NCBI RefSeq assembly: GCF_014467015.1
Contig: NZ_CP058559.1
Location: 558,001-622,000 of the forward strand
Reading direction: 5' to 3'
Source of the DNA: Alkalicella caledoniensis
GTDB taxonomy: Bacteria; Bacillota; Proteinivoracia; Proteinivoracales; Proteinivoracaceae
DNA length: 64,000 nucleotides
Both the position numbers and the translations under genes were made by a program. The notes beneath the pieces are model-generated. The model was given only the letters and a program-made list of their open reading frames with translations. It was not told the origin of the DNA and made no database searches. Positions 1-46,667 of the stretch are shown here, in pieces (position 1 is the stretch's first letter; every line of letters begins with the position of its first letter).

Positions 1-1338
1 ATTATGGGATATATTAGCACCAACCAAGTTTTTCTCTTGGTAGAATTCATATATTTTTTCGTACACCTCAAAGTAATTACCTAGTTTTCCATGTAGATAT
101 TCCATTGTTTTTTCGAACTTATGGCTATTATAGAATGTTTCTAATAAGTGTTCAATTCCCTTTAACTTGATCATTTCATGGAATTTTATATATTTGCTTT
201 CTAGTATTTCATATGGTGCAAATTCATTAAATTTATACTGATGTAACCCGCTTTCTTCCCTTATCTTTGATCCTTTAAGTAGCTTTAAAAAACCTAGCTG
301 TAGCTTGTGAGGTTTAAGGGCCATTACATCATTAAAGGATTTCTTAAATGACTCAAAATTCTCATAAGGCAAGCCAGCTATGAGGTCTAAGTGTTGATGT
401 ATATTGTTAAAGTGATTTACTCTACTTACTATTTCCTTTATTTTTTTAAAATTTGTTGAACGTTGGATGGCTTTTACACTTTCTTCATTTGTTGTCTGAA
501 CCCCTATTTCTAGCTGAATCCTGTTTAAGGGCATTTGTTCTAATAGGTTTAAAAGTTCTTCTGTGATTAAGTGTGCTGAGATTTCTAAGTGAAATGTAGT
601 TTCGGTGTCTAGATTTTTAATAAATGTTAATATGTCTATTGTTTTGTCTATGTCACAGTTAAAGGTTCTATCTACAAATTTAATCATTGATGTAGCCTGA
701 CTAATTAGCTCTAATTCCTTTTTAACCTTCTCTACATCAACATACCTAACACCATGGGTAGTTGATGATAAACAATATGAGCAGCTAAAAGGGCAACCCC
801 TACTTGCTTCATAATATAGTATCTGTTGTGATAGGGCTGTTAAGTCTTCGCCATTGTATGGGAATATCCTATCAGTCAGGTCTGGTACTTCGCCCATGTT
901 GTTGTCGGTATTTTTAGTCATCACTGCAGGGATATTCTCTATGCTTACACCGGTATTTATGGCCTGTATAACTTTCTTAAAGGGTATCTCCCCTTCCCCT
1001 TTTATTATGCAGTGGATATATGGATGTTGCTTTAAATAATCTACTGTTTCGAATGACACTTCTGGTCCACCAAGTACTATCTTAGTGTCTGGGAGAACTT
1101 TACTTAAAGAACTACACAGTTTATTAACCATCTCGATATTCCAGATATAACAAGAAAAGCCTAATATATCAGGCTTTTGTATATAAATATTCATTAAGAC
1201 ATCGTCAAAGTGATTGTTTATTGATGGTTCATATATGGAGACTTCTATGGGAAGCTCTTCTATAGAATTTCTTAAATAACGTATGGCTAAATTAGTGTGT
1301 ATATATTTTGCATTTATTCCCACAAGCAAGACTTTCAA
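1..1338 (-). CDS. B12-binding-domain radical SAM protein (DUF4080-like), 3' part cut off
   Basis: The reading frame stays open to the window edge, so the C-terminus is missing. The first ~140 residues read as a cobalamin-binding Rossmann fold (LVGINAKYIHTNLA near the start, LGGPEVS later). A radical SAM cluster follows near residue 181 as GCPFSCSYC, the CxxxCxxC that binds the SAM-linked 4Fe-4S cluster. I chose TTG at 1338 because AAAGGGG lies nine bases upstream; a TTG at 1347 abuts that site too closely. The architecture fits cytosolic B12-dependent radical SAM proteins with a DUF4080-type C-terminus, whose substrates are mostly unknown. No neighbour indicates a substrate. Family call is good; function is open. 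Confidence 0.85.
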   Translation of the reverse strand, partial: MKVLLVGINAKYIHTNLAIRYLRNSIEELPIEVSIYEPSINNHFDDVLMNIYIQKPDILGFSCYIWNIEMVNKLCSSLSKVLPDTKIVLGGPEVSFETVDYLKQHPYIHCIIKGEGEIPFKKVIQAINTGVSIENIPAVMTKNTDNNMGEVPDLTDRIFPYNGEDLTALSQQILYYEASRGCPFSCSYCLSSTTHGVRYVDVEKVKKELELISQATSMIKFVDRTFNCDIDKTIDILTFIKNLDTETTFHLEISAHLITEELLNLLEQMPLNRIQLEIGVQTTNEESVKAIQRSTNFKKIKEIVSRVNHFNNIHQHLDLIAGLPYENFESFKKSFNDVMALKPHKLQLGFLKLLKGSKIREESGLHQYKFNEFAPYEILESKYIKFHEMIKLKGIEHLLETFYNSHKFEKTMEYLHGKLGNYFEVYEKIYEFYQEKNLVGANISHN

Positions 1339-1919: not shown

Positions 1920-3020
1920 GTGAAAAAGAATATTTTATTTTTATTTAATGCCGTGGAGGATAGTAAAAGAGTAGGTATTTTCGGTGAATGTGCTTCTTTT
2001 AAAGCGGTTGATGCAATTTATAATGGATTAATAAAAAGCGGGAACAATGTGGAGCCTTTAAATGTTTTGAATCCACAACAATTGTCAGATAAAATCAATC
2101 AAGGAAACTATCATTTGGCCTTTGTTATAGCTGAAGGTTATTTAGAAATTCCAGAAACTTTGTATGATGGTTCAGGCTCACAACTTATACGTCAAGTTCT
2201 AAAAGCCCATAATCTCCCATATACCCATTCCGATATTGAATGTATGGAGTTTTGTAGAAACAAGGATTTCACCTATCAGATTTTAAAAGAAAACGGCATT
2301 TTAGTCCCTAGCTTCTGTGTGTTGAATCCAGATTTAGACTTATTAGATCAGCTTCAAGAAATAGATGCTACCATGGATTACCCTTTATTTGTCAAGCCAA
2401 CTGGTGGCGGAAATAGTATCGGTATAGATGAAAGCTCAATTGTTTATAATTTTGAGCAGTTAGATAATAAAGTTACAGCCCTGATTACTCAATTGGGCAA
2501 TGTTATGATTTTAGTTGAGACATACCTAAGTGGAAGGGAATACACCATAGGTGTAATTGGTGATGATAATCCTTTTGTTCTTCCAGTTGTGGGCTTCCCT
2601 TTGACATATAAGGTTCGTAGTTTCAATTCTAAAAAAGCAGAGCATAGCCAAAGGGAGAGCTTTCAAATAGTAGATTGTGATGATCCCCGTTATCTCCAAA
2701 TTCAAGACTTAGCTATCAAGACCTTTAAAAGTGTAGGTGCAGAAGATGTTATAAGGCTTGAAGTACGTGAAGATAGCAATAAAAATCTATATGTTATAGA
2801 TGTTAATGGAACCCCGGCTGTAACTCAAGGTGCTTCCTTAGCTTTCATGATGGAGCAGCTAGGTTTAGAGCATTATCAGCTAATTTGTTCAGTTCTGTAC
2901 TTTGCTATGTTGAAAAACGACATTGAAGTTAATAGCGAGTTAAAAAACATCATGGGTCATATACTTGGTGTCCTAGCTCCATATCAACAAACTATCAATA
3001 CTGCTCAACAAGCAATGTAA
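1920..3020 (+). CDS. ATP-grasp ligase related to D-Ala-D-Ala ligase
   Basis: A 366-residue protein starting with GTG behind AAGGAG. The ATP-grasp core is clear: PLFVKPTGGGNSIGI near residues 155-170 (nucleotide loop), VETYLSGREYTIGV near 200, and IRLEVRED...VIDVNGTPAVT near 278-302, where the last Asp and Asn would bind Mg. Ddl enzymes join two D-alanines for peptidoglycan. Here the N-terminus (VGIFGECASFKAVDAI) lacks the usual Ddl GGxSxE(H/R) motif and no mur genes adjoin, so another amino-acid or peptide ligase is possible. It is a single-gene unit with its own promoter and terminator. Confidence 0.8.
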   Translation: MKKNILFLFNAVEDSKRVGIFGECASFKAVDAIYNGLIKSGNNVEPLNVLNPQQLSDKINQGNYHLAFVIAEGYLEIPETLYDGSGSQLIRQVLKAHNLPYTHSDIECMEFCRNKDFTYQILKENGILVPSFCVLNPDLDLLDQLQEIDATMDYPLFVKPTGGGNSIGIDESSIVYNFEQLDNKVTALITQLGNVMILVETYLSGREYTIGVIGDDNPFVLPVVGFPLTYKVRSFNSKKAEHSQRESFQIVDCDDPRYLQIQDLAIKTFKSVGAEDVIRLEVREDSNKNLYVIDVNGTPAVTQGASLAFMMEQLGLEHYQLICSVLYFAMLKNDIEVNSELKNIMGHILGVLAPYQQTINTAQQAM

Positions 3021-9969: not shown

Positions 9970-10157
9970 TTCTTGTGGGGTAGAGGCGCGATACTTATTA
10001 GTACCGTGGGTGAGCTTGAGAAGCTAAGACCCCCCGGGAAAGGAAATATCGCCGAAGTAAATGTAAGCTCAAAGTACATTTGCTGGGTCTGCAGTGAACA
10101 ATTGCAGGACTGTCACAATAGGTATCCAAAATCTATTGTGGTGCGCTATCTCATTTA
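9970..10157 (+). promoter_or_regulatory. lysine riboswitch (L-box) aptamer
   Basis: The order of conserved L-box blocks is present: GTAGAGGCGCGA at the 5' strand of P1, TAGTACCGTGGGTGAG, AAAGGAAATATCGCCGAAGT, GCTGGGTCTGCAGTGAA, GACTGTCACAATAGG, and GTGGTGCGCTATCTC closing P1. An intrinsic terminator follows at 10196, so lysine should switch the gene off by transcription termination. The whole element lies before the true start of the transporter. Confidence 0.93.
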
Positions 10158-29226: not shown

Positions 29227-29610
29227 TTATCTTATTTCGCCATGAGTCTCGGGACCTTCAACAGATGTGATTTTATTGTTTTCATCTACGAATACTACTT
29301 GAGGTTGGTGTGCTTTTGCCTCATTTTTGTCTAACATGCAGTATGCGATTATAATAACCACGTCCCCTGGCTGCACTAAGCGGGCTGCTGCTCCGTTTAG
29401 GCATATGGTTCCTGAGCCTCTTTCACCTTCTATTACATATGTTTCTAAGCGAGCTCCATTATTATTATTTACTATTTGTACCTTTTCATGGGGCATAATT
29501 CCTGAGGCTTCTAAGAGATCCTTATCTATGGTAACACTACCAACATAATTCAGGTTAGCTTCAGTTACAACTGCTTTGTGTATTTTAGATTTAAACATTG
29601 TTATATACAT
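29227..29610 (-). CDS. panD: aspartate 1-decarboxylase
   Basis: A 127-residue proenzyme. NYVGSVTID places the self-cleavage site between Gly24 and Ser25; Ser25 becomes the pyruvoyl group that decarboxylates aspartate to beta-alanine. [18 protein letters not shown] and the later [20 protein letters not shown] are diagnostic. It supplies beta-alanine to PanC, encoded 3 bp upstream, and is the last gene of the pantothenate operon. Confidence 0.97.
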
Positions 29611-29613
29611 GGG

Positions 29614-30459
29614 TTAAACCTCCAACATAATATTGTCTATTAGTCTTACTTTACCTATCTTCACTGCTAATGCTATCAAAACATTGCCAGAAAGTCTATC
29701 TAAATCTTCCAAAGTATCACCACTTACTACCTTCACATAATCTATTTTAGCTAAAGGTTCAGAAGTTATTTTCTCTGTAATAGTAGTTCGAATCTTACTT
29801 GCTTCCCTTTCACCACGTCCAATACTCCCTTGAGCATCAAATAAAGAACGAGATAATACTAAGGCGGCTTTTCGTTCGTTATCTTTTAGGTTCACATTTC
29901 GAGAGCTCATGGCTAGGCCATCTTCTTCCCTAACAATTGGGCAGGGAATTATTTCTACAGGGAAGTTAAGGTCCTTGACCATCTGTTTGATCACAGCAAC
30001 TTGTTGGGCATCCTTTAGGCCAAAATATGCTTTATCTGGAAGCACCATATTGAACAACTTAGAAACTATGGTAGTAACACCCCTAAAATGCCCTGGGCGG
30101 GATGCCCCACATAACTTATCTGTTATTTCGTTAACGTCCACATAGGTTTTATAATTATCAGGATACATATCCTTTACCTGAGGGTAAAAAATAACATCTG
30201 CACCTACACCTTCAACTAGATTCCTATCCCTTTGAAAATCCCTAGGATAGATGTCAAAATCCTCCCCCTCCCCAAACTGGGTTGGGTTAACAAATATACT
30301 TACAACTACTACATCATTTTCTTTTTTTGCTTGCTCCATAAGGGAAAGATGCCCCTGGTGTAAAAAGCCCATTGTTGGTACAAATCCAACTGACTTTCCT
30401 TGTAATTTCATCCCTAAGGAATATTGCTGCATTTGTTTAGGGTTTTCAATTATATTCAT
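29614..30459 (-). CDS. panC: pantoate--beta-alanine ligase
   Basis: A 281-residue enzyme joining pantoate and beta-alanine with ATP. PTMGFLHQGHLSLM is the HIGH-type nucleotide motif, and VSIFVNPTQFGEGEDFDIYPR and AYFGLKDAQQ are family hallmarks. ATG at 30459 is chosen because GAGGT lies just upstream; a GTG 15 bases earlier overlaps that site. It is the third gene of the operon, 18 bp behind panB. Confidence 0.96.
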   Translation of the reverse strand: MNIIENPKQMQQYSLGMKLQGKSVGFVPTMGFLHQGHLSLMEQAKKENDVVVVSIFVNPTQFGEGEDFDIYPRDFQRDRNLVEGVGADVIFYPQVKDMYPDNYKTYVDVNEITDKLCGASRPGHFRGVTTIVSKLFNMVLPDKAYFGLKDAQQVAVIKQMVKDLNFPVEIIPCPIVREEDGLAMSSRNVNLKDNERKAALVLSRSLFDAQGSIGRGEREASKIRTTITEKITSEPLAKIDYVKVVSGDTLEDLDRLSGNVLIALAVKIGKVRLIDNIMLEV

Positions 30460-30477
30460 AAGTAGATACCTCACTAA

Positions 30478-31311
30478 TTAATATAGTTTTTCAAGCACAT
30501 CATCTTTTAACATAAATGAATGTTTATCTTCTGGAAAAGCACCAGATTTTACTTCTTGGATATATTCTCTAACGCCTTCTTTCATTGTTTCTCCTGTGTT
30601 CTTATAACGTTTTACGAATTTAGGAGCAAGATCTGAATACATACCTAGCATATCTTGTATAACTAAAACCTGCCCATCACATCCATTGCCTGCACCGATT
30701 CCAATTGTAGGTATGCTGATGGACTTTGATATATGGTCTGCAAGCTGTTTAGGTACACATTCAAGTACTATACCAAAGACACCTGCTTTTTCTAATAATT
30801 TTGCATCAGCAATAAGCTGTTTAGCCTGTTCTTCACTTTTACCCTGGACCTTGTAACCACCCATCATGTTTACTGATTGGGGTGTTAATCCTAGGTGTCC
30901 TAAAACTGGTATTTGAGCCTTTATCAGTGCTTCTATTTTATCTAGTATTTCCTCTCCACCCTCTAGTTTAACCCCTTGAGCATCTCCCTCTTGTATCAAT
31001 CTACCAGCATTTTTTATTGTCTCCTCGACACTTATGTGGTAAGAAAGATATGGCATATCAGCAATAACTAACGCCCTTTTAGCCCCCCTGGCCACAGCCT
31101 TTGTGTGGTGCACCATATCGTCCACAGTAACTTTTAAAGTACTGTCATACCCTAGCATCACCATGCCTAAAGAATCTCCAACTAATAGACATTCAACCCC
31201 TGCTTCATCTAAGAGCTTTGCAGTGGAATAGTCATATGCTGTCAACATACTAATTTTATCACCCTTTACCTTGCTTTGCATAAAGGAACTGACAGTATAC
31301 TTTTTATCCAT
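30478..31311 (-). CDS. panB: 3-methyl-2-oxobutanoate hydroxymethyltransferase
   Basis: A 277-residue TIM-barrel enzyme that makes ketopantoate from ketoisovalerate and methylene-tetrahydrofolate. [45 protein letters not shown] and [15 protein letters not shown] carry the Mg- and substrate-binding residues. ATG at 31311 overlaps the end of the DUF2520 gene by 8 bp. Confidence 0.97.
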
Positions 31312-32164
31312 TTAATCCACTTCCCTCTAATATTTTTTTTAATGCTTCTATATCCTCTTTCCTAAGGCCTCTCTTTTCAGCCACATCTAAGGTTTCCAAA
31401 CCTAAAGCTGAGTAAAAAGATTTCTGGTCATCATTTAAATTTTCCAGGTGATTTTGTATAGTTACCATATCACCACGTACTATTGGCCCTGTCAGGGCAT
31501 CTACAACTCCCAATTTATCTATGTTATCCATTGTACCCTGCATAAGTGGCATTAGAACATCATGCCCCTCTTGCTCGTTAAAACCAATGGTCTTTAGCAT
31601 ATTAGTTGATACTTTAGCTAATGTAACTAGGTAGTTTGAAGCTACACATGCTGCAGCATGGTACAATGGTTTATGTTCAGGCTCAATCTCTTTAAATTTA
31701 TTCCCTATCTTCTTCAGTATCTCAAGTATTGCAGATTTATCTCCAGTGCCCTCCATAGTAAAAAAAGTATTGTGTATTGCATCTATACTCTTTTTTGTAT
31801 CAGCAAAAGATTGCATAGGATGAAGGGAAAAAGTATTGGCACCTTGTGCTTTAGCTTTTGATAATATATCGGATTTTAGTGCACCTGACATATGTACTAT
31901 GGTTTGATTGTTGCTAAATCCAATGTTTTCTCCTATATCATCACAGACTTTTTTAATTACACTATCGGGGGTTGTTAAAAAAACTATATCCGACTGTTCC
32001 ACCACTTCTTCAAGGGACAAAACTTTAGCGGAAGAGAATTCTGCAGCTTTTTGGGCAGACTCTGGATTTCTGCTGTAATAACCCACAACATTCAATCCGT
32101 TTTCCTTTAAGTAGTGCCCAAAAACAGTACCAACCTTACCAGCTCCTATGAAACCTATATTCAT
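31304..32164 (-). CDS. DUF2520 Rossmann-fold dehydrogenase, possible ketopantoate reductase
   Basis: A 286-residue protein. [19 protein letters not shown] is an NAD(P)-binding GxGxxG motif followed by the second strand [27 protein letters not shown] and [10 protein letters not shown] are typical of the DUF2520 (Rossmann-like plus helical) family. PanE, which reduces ketopantoate to pantoate, is missing from this operon while the other three steps are present, so this protein may fill the gap; IlvC elsewhere in the genome could also do it. ATG at 32164 follows GGAGGTGAAGGG. It is the first gene of the operon. Confidence 0.82.
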
Positions 32165-32223
32165 CCCTTCACCTCCATTTTTCAAAGTATCAGTTAGGTT
32201 ATTTTAACCAAGCCAGGGAAGAA

Positions 32224-32378
32224 ATAAAAAAATCTATCCAATTTGGATAGACAGGGAAAATACACCTCTTGTGAGATGTTTCAATCTTATACCTGTCTCG
32301 GTCCAAGCTTGGCTCAGAGCAGTGCTTTGTAGTTATTAATACACCAAAATTCGTTTCACTCCCATTTGGGTAGCTTAC
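32224..32378 (-). promoter_or_regulatory. structured 5' leader of the pan operon, candidate riboswitch
   Basis: On the minus strand, transcription from the promoter at 32385-32413 would produce ~215 bases before the start codon. The leader holds a GCTACCC/GGGAG hairpin, a CATCTC/GAGGTG hairpin, and an intrinsic terminator (TCTATCC, AATTT loop, GGATAGA, seven T residues at 32224-32251). AGACAGG (plus 32292-32298) can pair with CCTGTCT at the terminator base (plus 32249-32255), an alternative antiterminator. The RNA class is not recognised; a known pan motif precedes pan genes in some Firmicutes and should be compared. Confidence 0.6.
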
Positions 32379-32384
32379 AATTTT

Positions 32385-32413
32385 ATTATATGTTAAATAC
32401 CAAAATAGTGCAA
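32385..32413 (-). promoter_or_regulatory. pan operon promoter
   Basis: On the minus strand TTGCAC (32408-32413), a 17-base spacer and a perfect TATAAT (32385-32390). Confidence 0.75.
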
Positions 32414-32482
32414 TAGATTGGGCCCAAAAAGTGTAATGATGATGATAACTGAAAAATAGTAGTAAATTAATCATATATACAA

Positions 32483-32520
32483 AGGGATTGTAGCGATAAA
32501 TTTCATCATCTACAATCCCT
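32483..32520 (-). terminator. hairpin terminator of the GH13 gene
   Basis: AGGGATTGTAG pairs perfectly with CTACAATCCCT; on the minus strand TTTG follows, so termination strength is moderate. Confidence 0.65.
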
Positions 32521-46463: not shown

Positions 46464-46469
46464 ATGTAT

Positions 46470-46667
46470 TGCACCCAGGATGCCGGTGCCCCAAAATTTT
46501 CAAGACCCTGCTCTACTCACAGGTGGGTGCTCTGCTTTAAAGGTTCGCTTTCCATTCTAAAGATGGCTTAGCGTTGCTTTAAAAACTCGAACTCCCGATG
46601 TCAAAATGTAGGTTGAAAATAATAGAGCTTTCGAACACCTCAGGAATATTTATTTTTTTTTAACTTG
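46470..46667 (-). ncRNA. ssrS: 6S RNA
   Basis: Read on the minus strand, the RNA starts with TTCCTGAGGTGTTCGAAAGC, close to the CTGAGATGTTCGCAAGC start of E. coli 6S RNA, and ends with GCACCCACCTG, TCTTGAAAATTTTGGGGCACC and GGCATCCTGGGTGC, in the order of 6S 3' segments. The two ends pair and leave an open central bulge, the mimic of an open promoter that binds housekeeping RNA polymerase. A strong promoter lies upstream and a terminator downstream. 5' and 3' ends are approximate. Confidence 0.8.

Follow-up and report, generated by a model that had tools for sequence, protein, structure and literature searches.

The leader of the DUF2520-panBCD operon in Alkalicella caledoniensis is a divergent pan RNA, a member of an RNA class which has remained an orphan since 2010, and with a probability of roughly 0.78 it controls this operon by transcription termination, with the pan fold as the OFF state. 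It is located in a stretch of 64,000 nt (the window; all coordinates refer to it). In the proposed switch two hairpins with bulged A residues, P1 and P2, would together act as the sensor. As long as nothing holds P2, AGACAGG, the 3' strand of this hairpin, would pair with CCTGTCT, occupy the base of the terminator and permit read-through (ON). We infer that an effector, either a metabolite of the pathway or a protein, which reports sufficient pantothenate or CoA would hold the pan fold and keep AGACAGG in P2; the terminator would then form and transcription would stop (OFF).

The leader is on the minus strand and extends from about 32378, the probable start of transcription, to 32165, i.e., about 214 nt to the ATG at 32164. 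A promoter had been described as perfect in the initial annotation. This holds for the -10 hexamer TATAAT (32385..32390, minus strand); the -35-like hexamer TTGCAC (32408..32413, minus strand; spacer 17 nt) matches at 3 of 6 positions only, and the promoter of the pan operon is absent from the output of a promoter scan. The other elements of that annotation, a structured leader of about 215 bases, an intrinsic terminator and a pairing of AGACAGG with CCTGTCT, were all borne out. The 166 nt of leader that precede the T-run fold better than shuffled sequences (z -3.1; 1 of 200 shuffles was equally good), and the predicted minimum-energy fold contains the AGACAGG:CCTGTCT helix. In order of transcription, all on the minus strand, the leader comprises P1 (32353..32378), P2 (32293..32322), the 5' strand of the antiterminator, AGACAGG (32292..32298), which is mostly paired in P2 as well, a small hairpin within the antiterminator, ACATCTC-ACAA-GAGGTGT (32262..32279), and the exactly complementary 3' strand CCTGTCT (32249..32255). 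At the site of the small hairpin the other four relatives in the family also have hairpins, of different sequence. The last 4 nt of CCTGTCT, GTCT, belong to the 5' arm and form the base of the intrinsic terminator, GTCTATCCAAATTGGATAGA with its T tract (32222..32252), in which the hairpin 32252-32233 is followed by TTTTTTTATTT. The terminator was found by a terminator scan which reported 6 terminator-like sites in 1.2 kb versus 0.7 expected in shuffles. P2 and the antiterminator exclude each other, as the alternative pairings in the expression platform of a riboswitch do. Farther upstream, between an alpha-amylase-like gene and the pan promoter, an inverted repeat, AGGGATTGTAG..CTACAATCCCT (32481-32520), probably is the terminator of the alpha-amylase-like gene.

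The assignment to the pan class, which the initial annotation had rightly suspected and left open, is based on sequence models and on layout. The pan motif RF01749 is the top Rfam match of the leader (32289..32379, minus strand; 32.3 bits, E 7.7e-4 on 441 bases), obtained when only the leader was searched, under relaxed filters. The match spans the full model, 1-92, yet it scores below the gathering cut-off of 36.2 bits, which is a threshold of the database and not a biological trait. Across the 3.7 Mb genome the leader is the best match to RF01749 (E 0.0016, next 2.6); at the gathering score the Rfam matches in the window are a lysine riboswitch and a 6S RNA only. In the available text of PMC2864571 most pan RNAs are described as tandem hairpins. 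This layout is evident from P1 (32378-32353) and P2 (32322-32293), as is the expected genomic context, upstream of DUF2520-panB-panC-panD. P2 keeps both bulged A residues; P1 keeps the one of its 5' strand, and its 3' A sits in a small internal loop. Beside this 3' A the family has an AA/GAA internal loop in place of canonical pairs, which probably accounts for the low score.

The TGGACCG stretch of the leader looks like the T-box sequence. The chance that the leader is a T-box is nevertheless close to nil: the T-box model remained unmatched up to E 10 on the leader and at the gathering score in the window, no tRNA specifier domain was seen in the leader, and TTGGACC is part of the 3' strand of P2, a stretch common to pan leaders. 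The T-box reading was rejected on these grounds, and the doubt about it which had been expressed earlier was justified.

Two other RNAs were located by the same searches. The lysine riboswitch (RF00168) is at 9973-10156 on the plus strand (123.8 bits). The 6S RNA of the window (46468-46649, minus strand) is 14 kb away from the pan leader; further copies were found at 2662-2840 (minus strand) of locus L165 and at 647-824 (plus strand) of locus L166. In genomes G002 and G004 of the family a 6S RNA is the immediate upstream neighbor of the pan leader, in the same orientation and about 225 to 250 nt away.

The operon is as initially annotated, and Pfam confirms all four genes in the claimed order, each on the minus strand: DUF2520 (31304..32164; ATG at 32164, ribosome-binding site GGAGGTG), panB, ketopantoate hydroxymethyltransferase (30478..31311), panC, pantoate-beta-alanine ligase (29614..30474), and panD, aspartate decarboxylase (29227..29610). 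A search of the 3.7 Mb genome yielded no match for ApbA_C (PanE) and none for KARI_C (IlvC, ketol-acid reductoisomerase). Because both are missing from the genome, the DUF2520 protein is likely the ketopantoate reductase; since KARI_C is missing, 2-ketoisovalerate for pantothenate is probably supplied by imported valine. The PanG of a 2013 report is probably a DUF2520 protein as well. As far as cited in PMC4207893, PanG is a further type of ketopantoate reductase.

Within the taxonomic class, panB is present in 5 of 13 genomes, all five in the family of the window, and each of them has the same leader ahead of DUF2520-panB. A scan of genome contigs with a PanB alignment gave 80 named loci, which are outside the set analyzed here; a DUF2520 scan of the contigs returned nothing. 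The RF01749 scores of the other four leaders, G001 43.2, G004 42.2, G003 39.9 and G002 36.6 bits, all exceed the gathering cut-off; the G002 leader was missed by the whole-genome searches and was found by cmscan once its sequence was read. Aligned leaders of relatives show covariation in P1: among four distinct family sequences 35 of 35 cells are paired, and 3 of 9 pairs have changed on both sides, one of these passing through four pair types. A slid partner, as a control, pairs in at most 52%. In P2 89% of the cells are paired and both bulged A residues are kept, and the hairpin varies too little for covariation. The AGACAGG:CCTGTCT helix is complete (7 of 7 pairs) in three family leaders and has 6 of 7 pairs in the other two; as AGACAGG is invariant in the family its helix cannot display covariation there. 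MAFFT alignments of four whole leaders and of the terminators were poor and were excluded from the pair counts.

The competing states were compared by forced folding. In the window the ON fold is at -39.1 and the OFF fold at -35.6 kcal/mol; two other family leaders give -41.1/-36.4 and -42.9/-37.2 kcal/mol (ON/OFF). In the two leaders with a mismatch in the antiterminator, at -42.9/-44.6 and -42.0/-43.7 kcal/mol, OFF is more stable than ON by 1.7 kcal/mol without an effector; therefore, the order of folding during transcription must matter. These two of five leaders also furnish an argument for the opposite sign, in which the pan fold would favor read-through: where the pan fold plus terminator already is the more stable state, an effector which favors OFF adds little at equilibrium. 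We rejected such an ON switch as very improbable because one strand serves both P2 and the antiterminator, and because P2 and the terminator can coexist in every one of the five family leaders. As the 3' strand of P2 pairs with the terminator, the pan fold should mean OFF.

This pairing is not a peculiarity of one family. Of the 398 phylum genomes searched, 180 contain an RF01749 match at E 0.05, and in 138 the match exceeds the cut-off. Our set of 156 leaders consists of 149 among the phylum matches listed (down to about 36 bits) plus L002, L020, L028 and L030-L033; weaker matches for which no locus was available, one at 31.7 bits and the others at 25.9 bits or less, were left out. L033 (27.9 bits, ahead of a peptidase-like gene) probably is a false match; it is retained in all counts of 156, as is L071, the neighbors of which were not recognized. 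A terminator-like hairpin (-7 kcal/mol or better) is found within 170 nt in 135 of 156 leaders versus 30 in shuffled sequence; an earlier, cruder finder had given 139 of 156 and was superseded. For the pairing tests duplicates with identical P2 and terminator were removed (n=129), or the top-scoring leader of each taxonomic family was taken (n=56, from 61 families, in 5 of which no terminator was found). RNAduplex energies, with bulges allowed, were compared with those obtained after swapping partners between genomes and after dinucleotide shuffling.

The results single out one strand. The 3' strand of P2 with its tail pairs with its own terminator at -15.2, compared with -13.0 for swapped (p 6e-12) and -11.8 for shuffled partners (p 4e-19; n=129). 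P1 gives -12.9 with its own terminator, -12.5 swapped and -13.4 shuffled (p 0.09 and 0.97), and the 5' strand of P2 -10.0, -9.6 and -9.8, respectively (p 0.13 and 0.61; both n=129). When every family is represented by one leader the 3' strand of P2 retains its signal (p 2e-6; 42 of 56 better than swapped), the predicted duplex includes 2 or more bases of P2 together with 4 or more from the 5' half of the terminator in 48 of 56, and the 5' strand of P2 also is weakly positive (p 0.025, n=56). The RNAduplex test replaced an earlier test which used the best ungapped helix and mononucleotide shuffles and which gave a weak signal, 23 of 135 leaders being individually significant at p 0.05; in it, the reversed strand and the real strand had nearly equal energies (p 0.22). 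A covariation count at one position, scorable in 99 of 156 leaders, is modest: A is opposite C in 8 of 22 (Fisher p 0.023). Taken with the family folds, these tests support the terminator/antiterminator reading of the initial annotation, and they make a good case for regulated termination in which the 3' strand of P2 acts as the antiterminator, across a large part of the class though perhaps not throughout it.

According to a parser run on the 156 leaders the 3' bulged A of P2 is present in 156 of 156 and the 5' bulged A in 137 of 156; as the leaders were selected by the Rfam model, such conservation counts are biased toward it. The first pair above the 5' bulged A of P2 is U-A in 87 and G.A in 47 of the 156 leaders, i.e., the 3' A is nearly constant; this pair perhaps contributes to a special contact made by the effector.

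Downstream of the leaders, panB, panC, panD or DUF2520 follow at 135 of 156 loci (tblastn at 1e-4). Another 19 have an ECF S component (with or without CoaX, BioY or BirA), an OPT transporter plus type II pantothenate kinase, a PanF-like symporter or an amidohydrolase; at 2 loci the downstream genes were not recognized. The first recognized gene is DUF2520 in 92, panB in 20, panC in 15, PanS and the ECF S component in 7 each, BioY in 4, OPT in 3, BirA and amidohydrolase in 2 each, panD and PanF in 1 each, and none in 2 of the 156 loci. The ECF component, BioY, type III pantothenate kinase, SSF symporter, OPT, SBF, amidohydrolase and biotin ligase were identified by Pfam on representatives, and the remaining loci of each group were assigned by similarity to the representative proteins; PanF, PanS and type II pantothenate kinase are best NCBIfam matches, all of them below the cut-offs and two of the three fragments. 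Thus, nearly all genes downstream of pan RNAs serve the synthesis, uptake or phosphorylation of pantothenate/CoA. At three loci (L086, L107, L111) the pan leader lies ahead of an OPT-family transporter, with a type II pantothenate kinase-like gene next in line; pantothenate or a pantetheine compound might be taken up by this transporter. At two more (L029, L095) the leader precedes an amidohydrolase (Amidohydro_3), with a BirA-like gene next in L095; the amidohydrolase is an unexplained target of the class.

What holds the pan fold may be a protein or a metabolite; both are compatible with the termination mechanism and differ in the effector only. The two pan hairpins are simple and have few conserved unpaired bases, in which they are unlike the cofactor aptamers known to date. 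This speaks against direct binding of pantothenate, 4'-phosphopantothenate, CoA or pantoate, as does the fact that our literature search produced no ligand since 2010. Conversely, the regulon unites synthesis, import of a precursor (PanS), a PanF-like symporter and kinases (CoaX, type II), a composition which fits the sensing of a late product, and in the available text of a 2022 review (PMC9971707) CoA is a notable missing riboswitch ligand. That pan RNAs are true riboswitches has slightly less than even odds. We hold it to be just as conceivable, again a little short of an even chance, that the RNA binds no metabolite and that the OFF fold is held by a dimeric RNA-binding protein bound to both of the similar A-bulged hairpins. 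P1 and P2 share one layout, the bulged A residues of P2 are kept as counted above, and the discoverers, in the portion of PMC2864571 available, took the simple structure and dimeric arrangement to suggest a motif that binds a dimeric protein. What argues against a protein is that many of the downstream operons contain enzymes and transporters only.

Through the pairing of P2 with the terminator the pan class acquires an expression platform, and its sign can be predicted as OFF; the effector thus becomes open to search by simple in vitro termination assays. From the broader range of genes that follow pan leaders, a late product of the pantothenate/CoA pathway emerges as the likely signal. We tentatively go one step further, at odds distinctly below even: pan RNAs may be a widespread termination OFF switch for a vitamin B5/CoA regulon and, at the same time, the missing pantothenate/CoA riboswitch class. 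The regulon would then comprise synthesis, PanS, PanF, the ECF uptake component, the OPT transporter and two kinds of pantothenate kinase, and the ligand would bind directly to the paired A-bulged hairpins. What is new, as far as the literature was searched, is the evidence across the class that pan RNAs have an expression platform, together with the prediction that its sign is OFF. Concerning the pan motif, the accessible part of PMC2864571 names only panB, panC and aspartate decarboxylase and does not mention terminators. PMC5670726, PMC4342826 and PMC4634765, as far as available, report pan leaders in other species and add no mechanism; the 2022 review, in the part at hand, states that no CoA riboswitch is known (PMC9971707), and the terms 'riboswitch' and 'pan RNA' do not occur in the accessible text of a 2024 paper on CoA synthesis in B. 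subtilis (PMC11487621). The search, which returned no ligand or mechanism for pan RNA, covered neither supplements nor most subscription journals, so a mechanism may already be in print there.

Compared with known systems, the leader has in common with the lysine riboswitch of the same window that both are metabolic leader RNAs; the latter has an unrelated fold and a known ligand. With T-box leaders it shares an intrinsic terminator opposed by a competing antiterminator and the TGGACC-like stretch, and it differs from them in that it has no match to the T-box model and no specifier domain and in that this stretch is part of pan P2. With the pan motif RF01749 it shares the location upstream of pan genes and the two hairpins, which in the published form have two bulged A residues each and of which P2 is complete here. 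It departs from that motif in that the antiterminator extends further into P2 (AGACAGG), overlaps the terminator base by only 4 nt and contains an extra hairpin.
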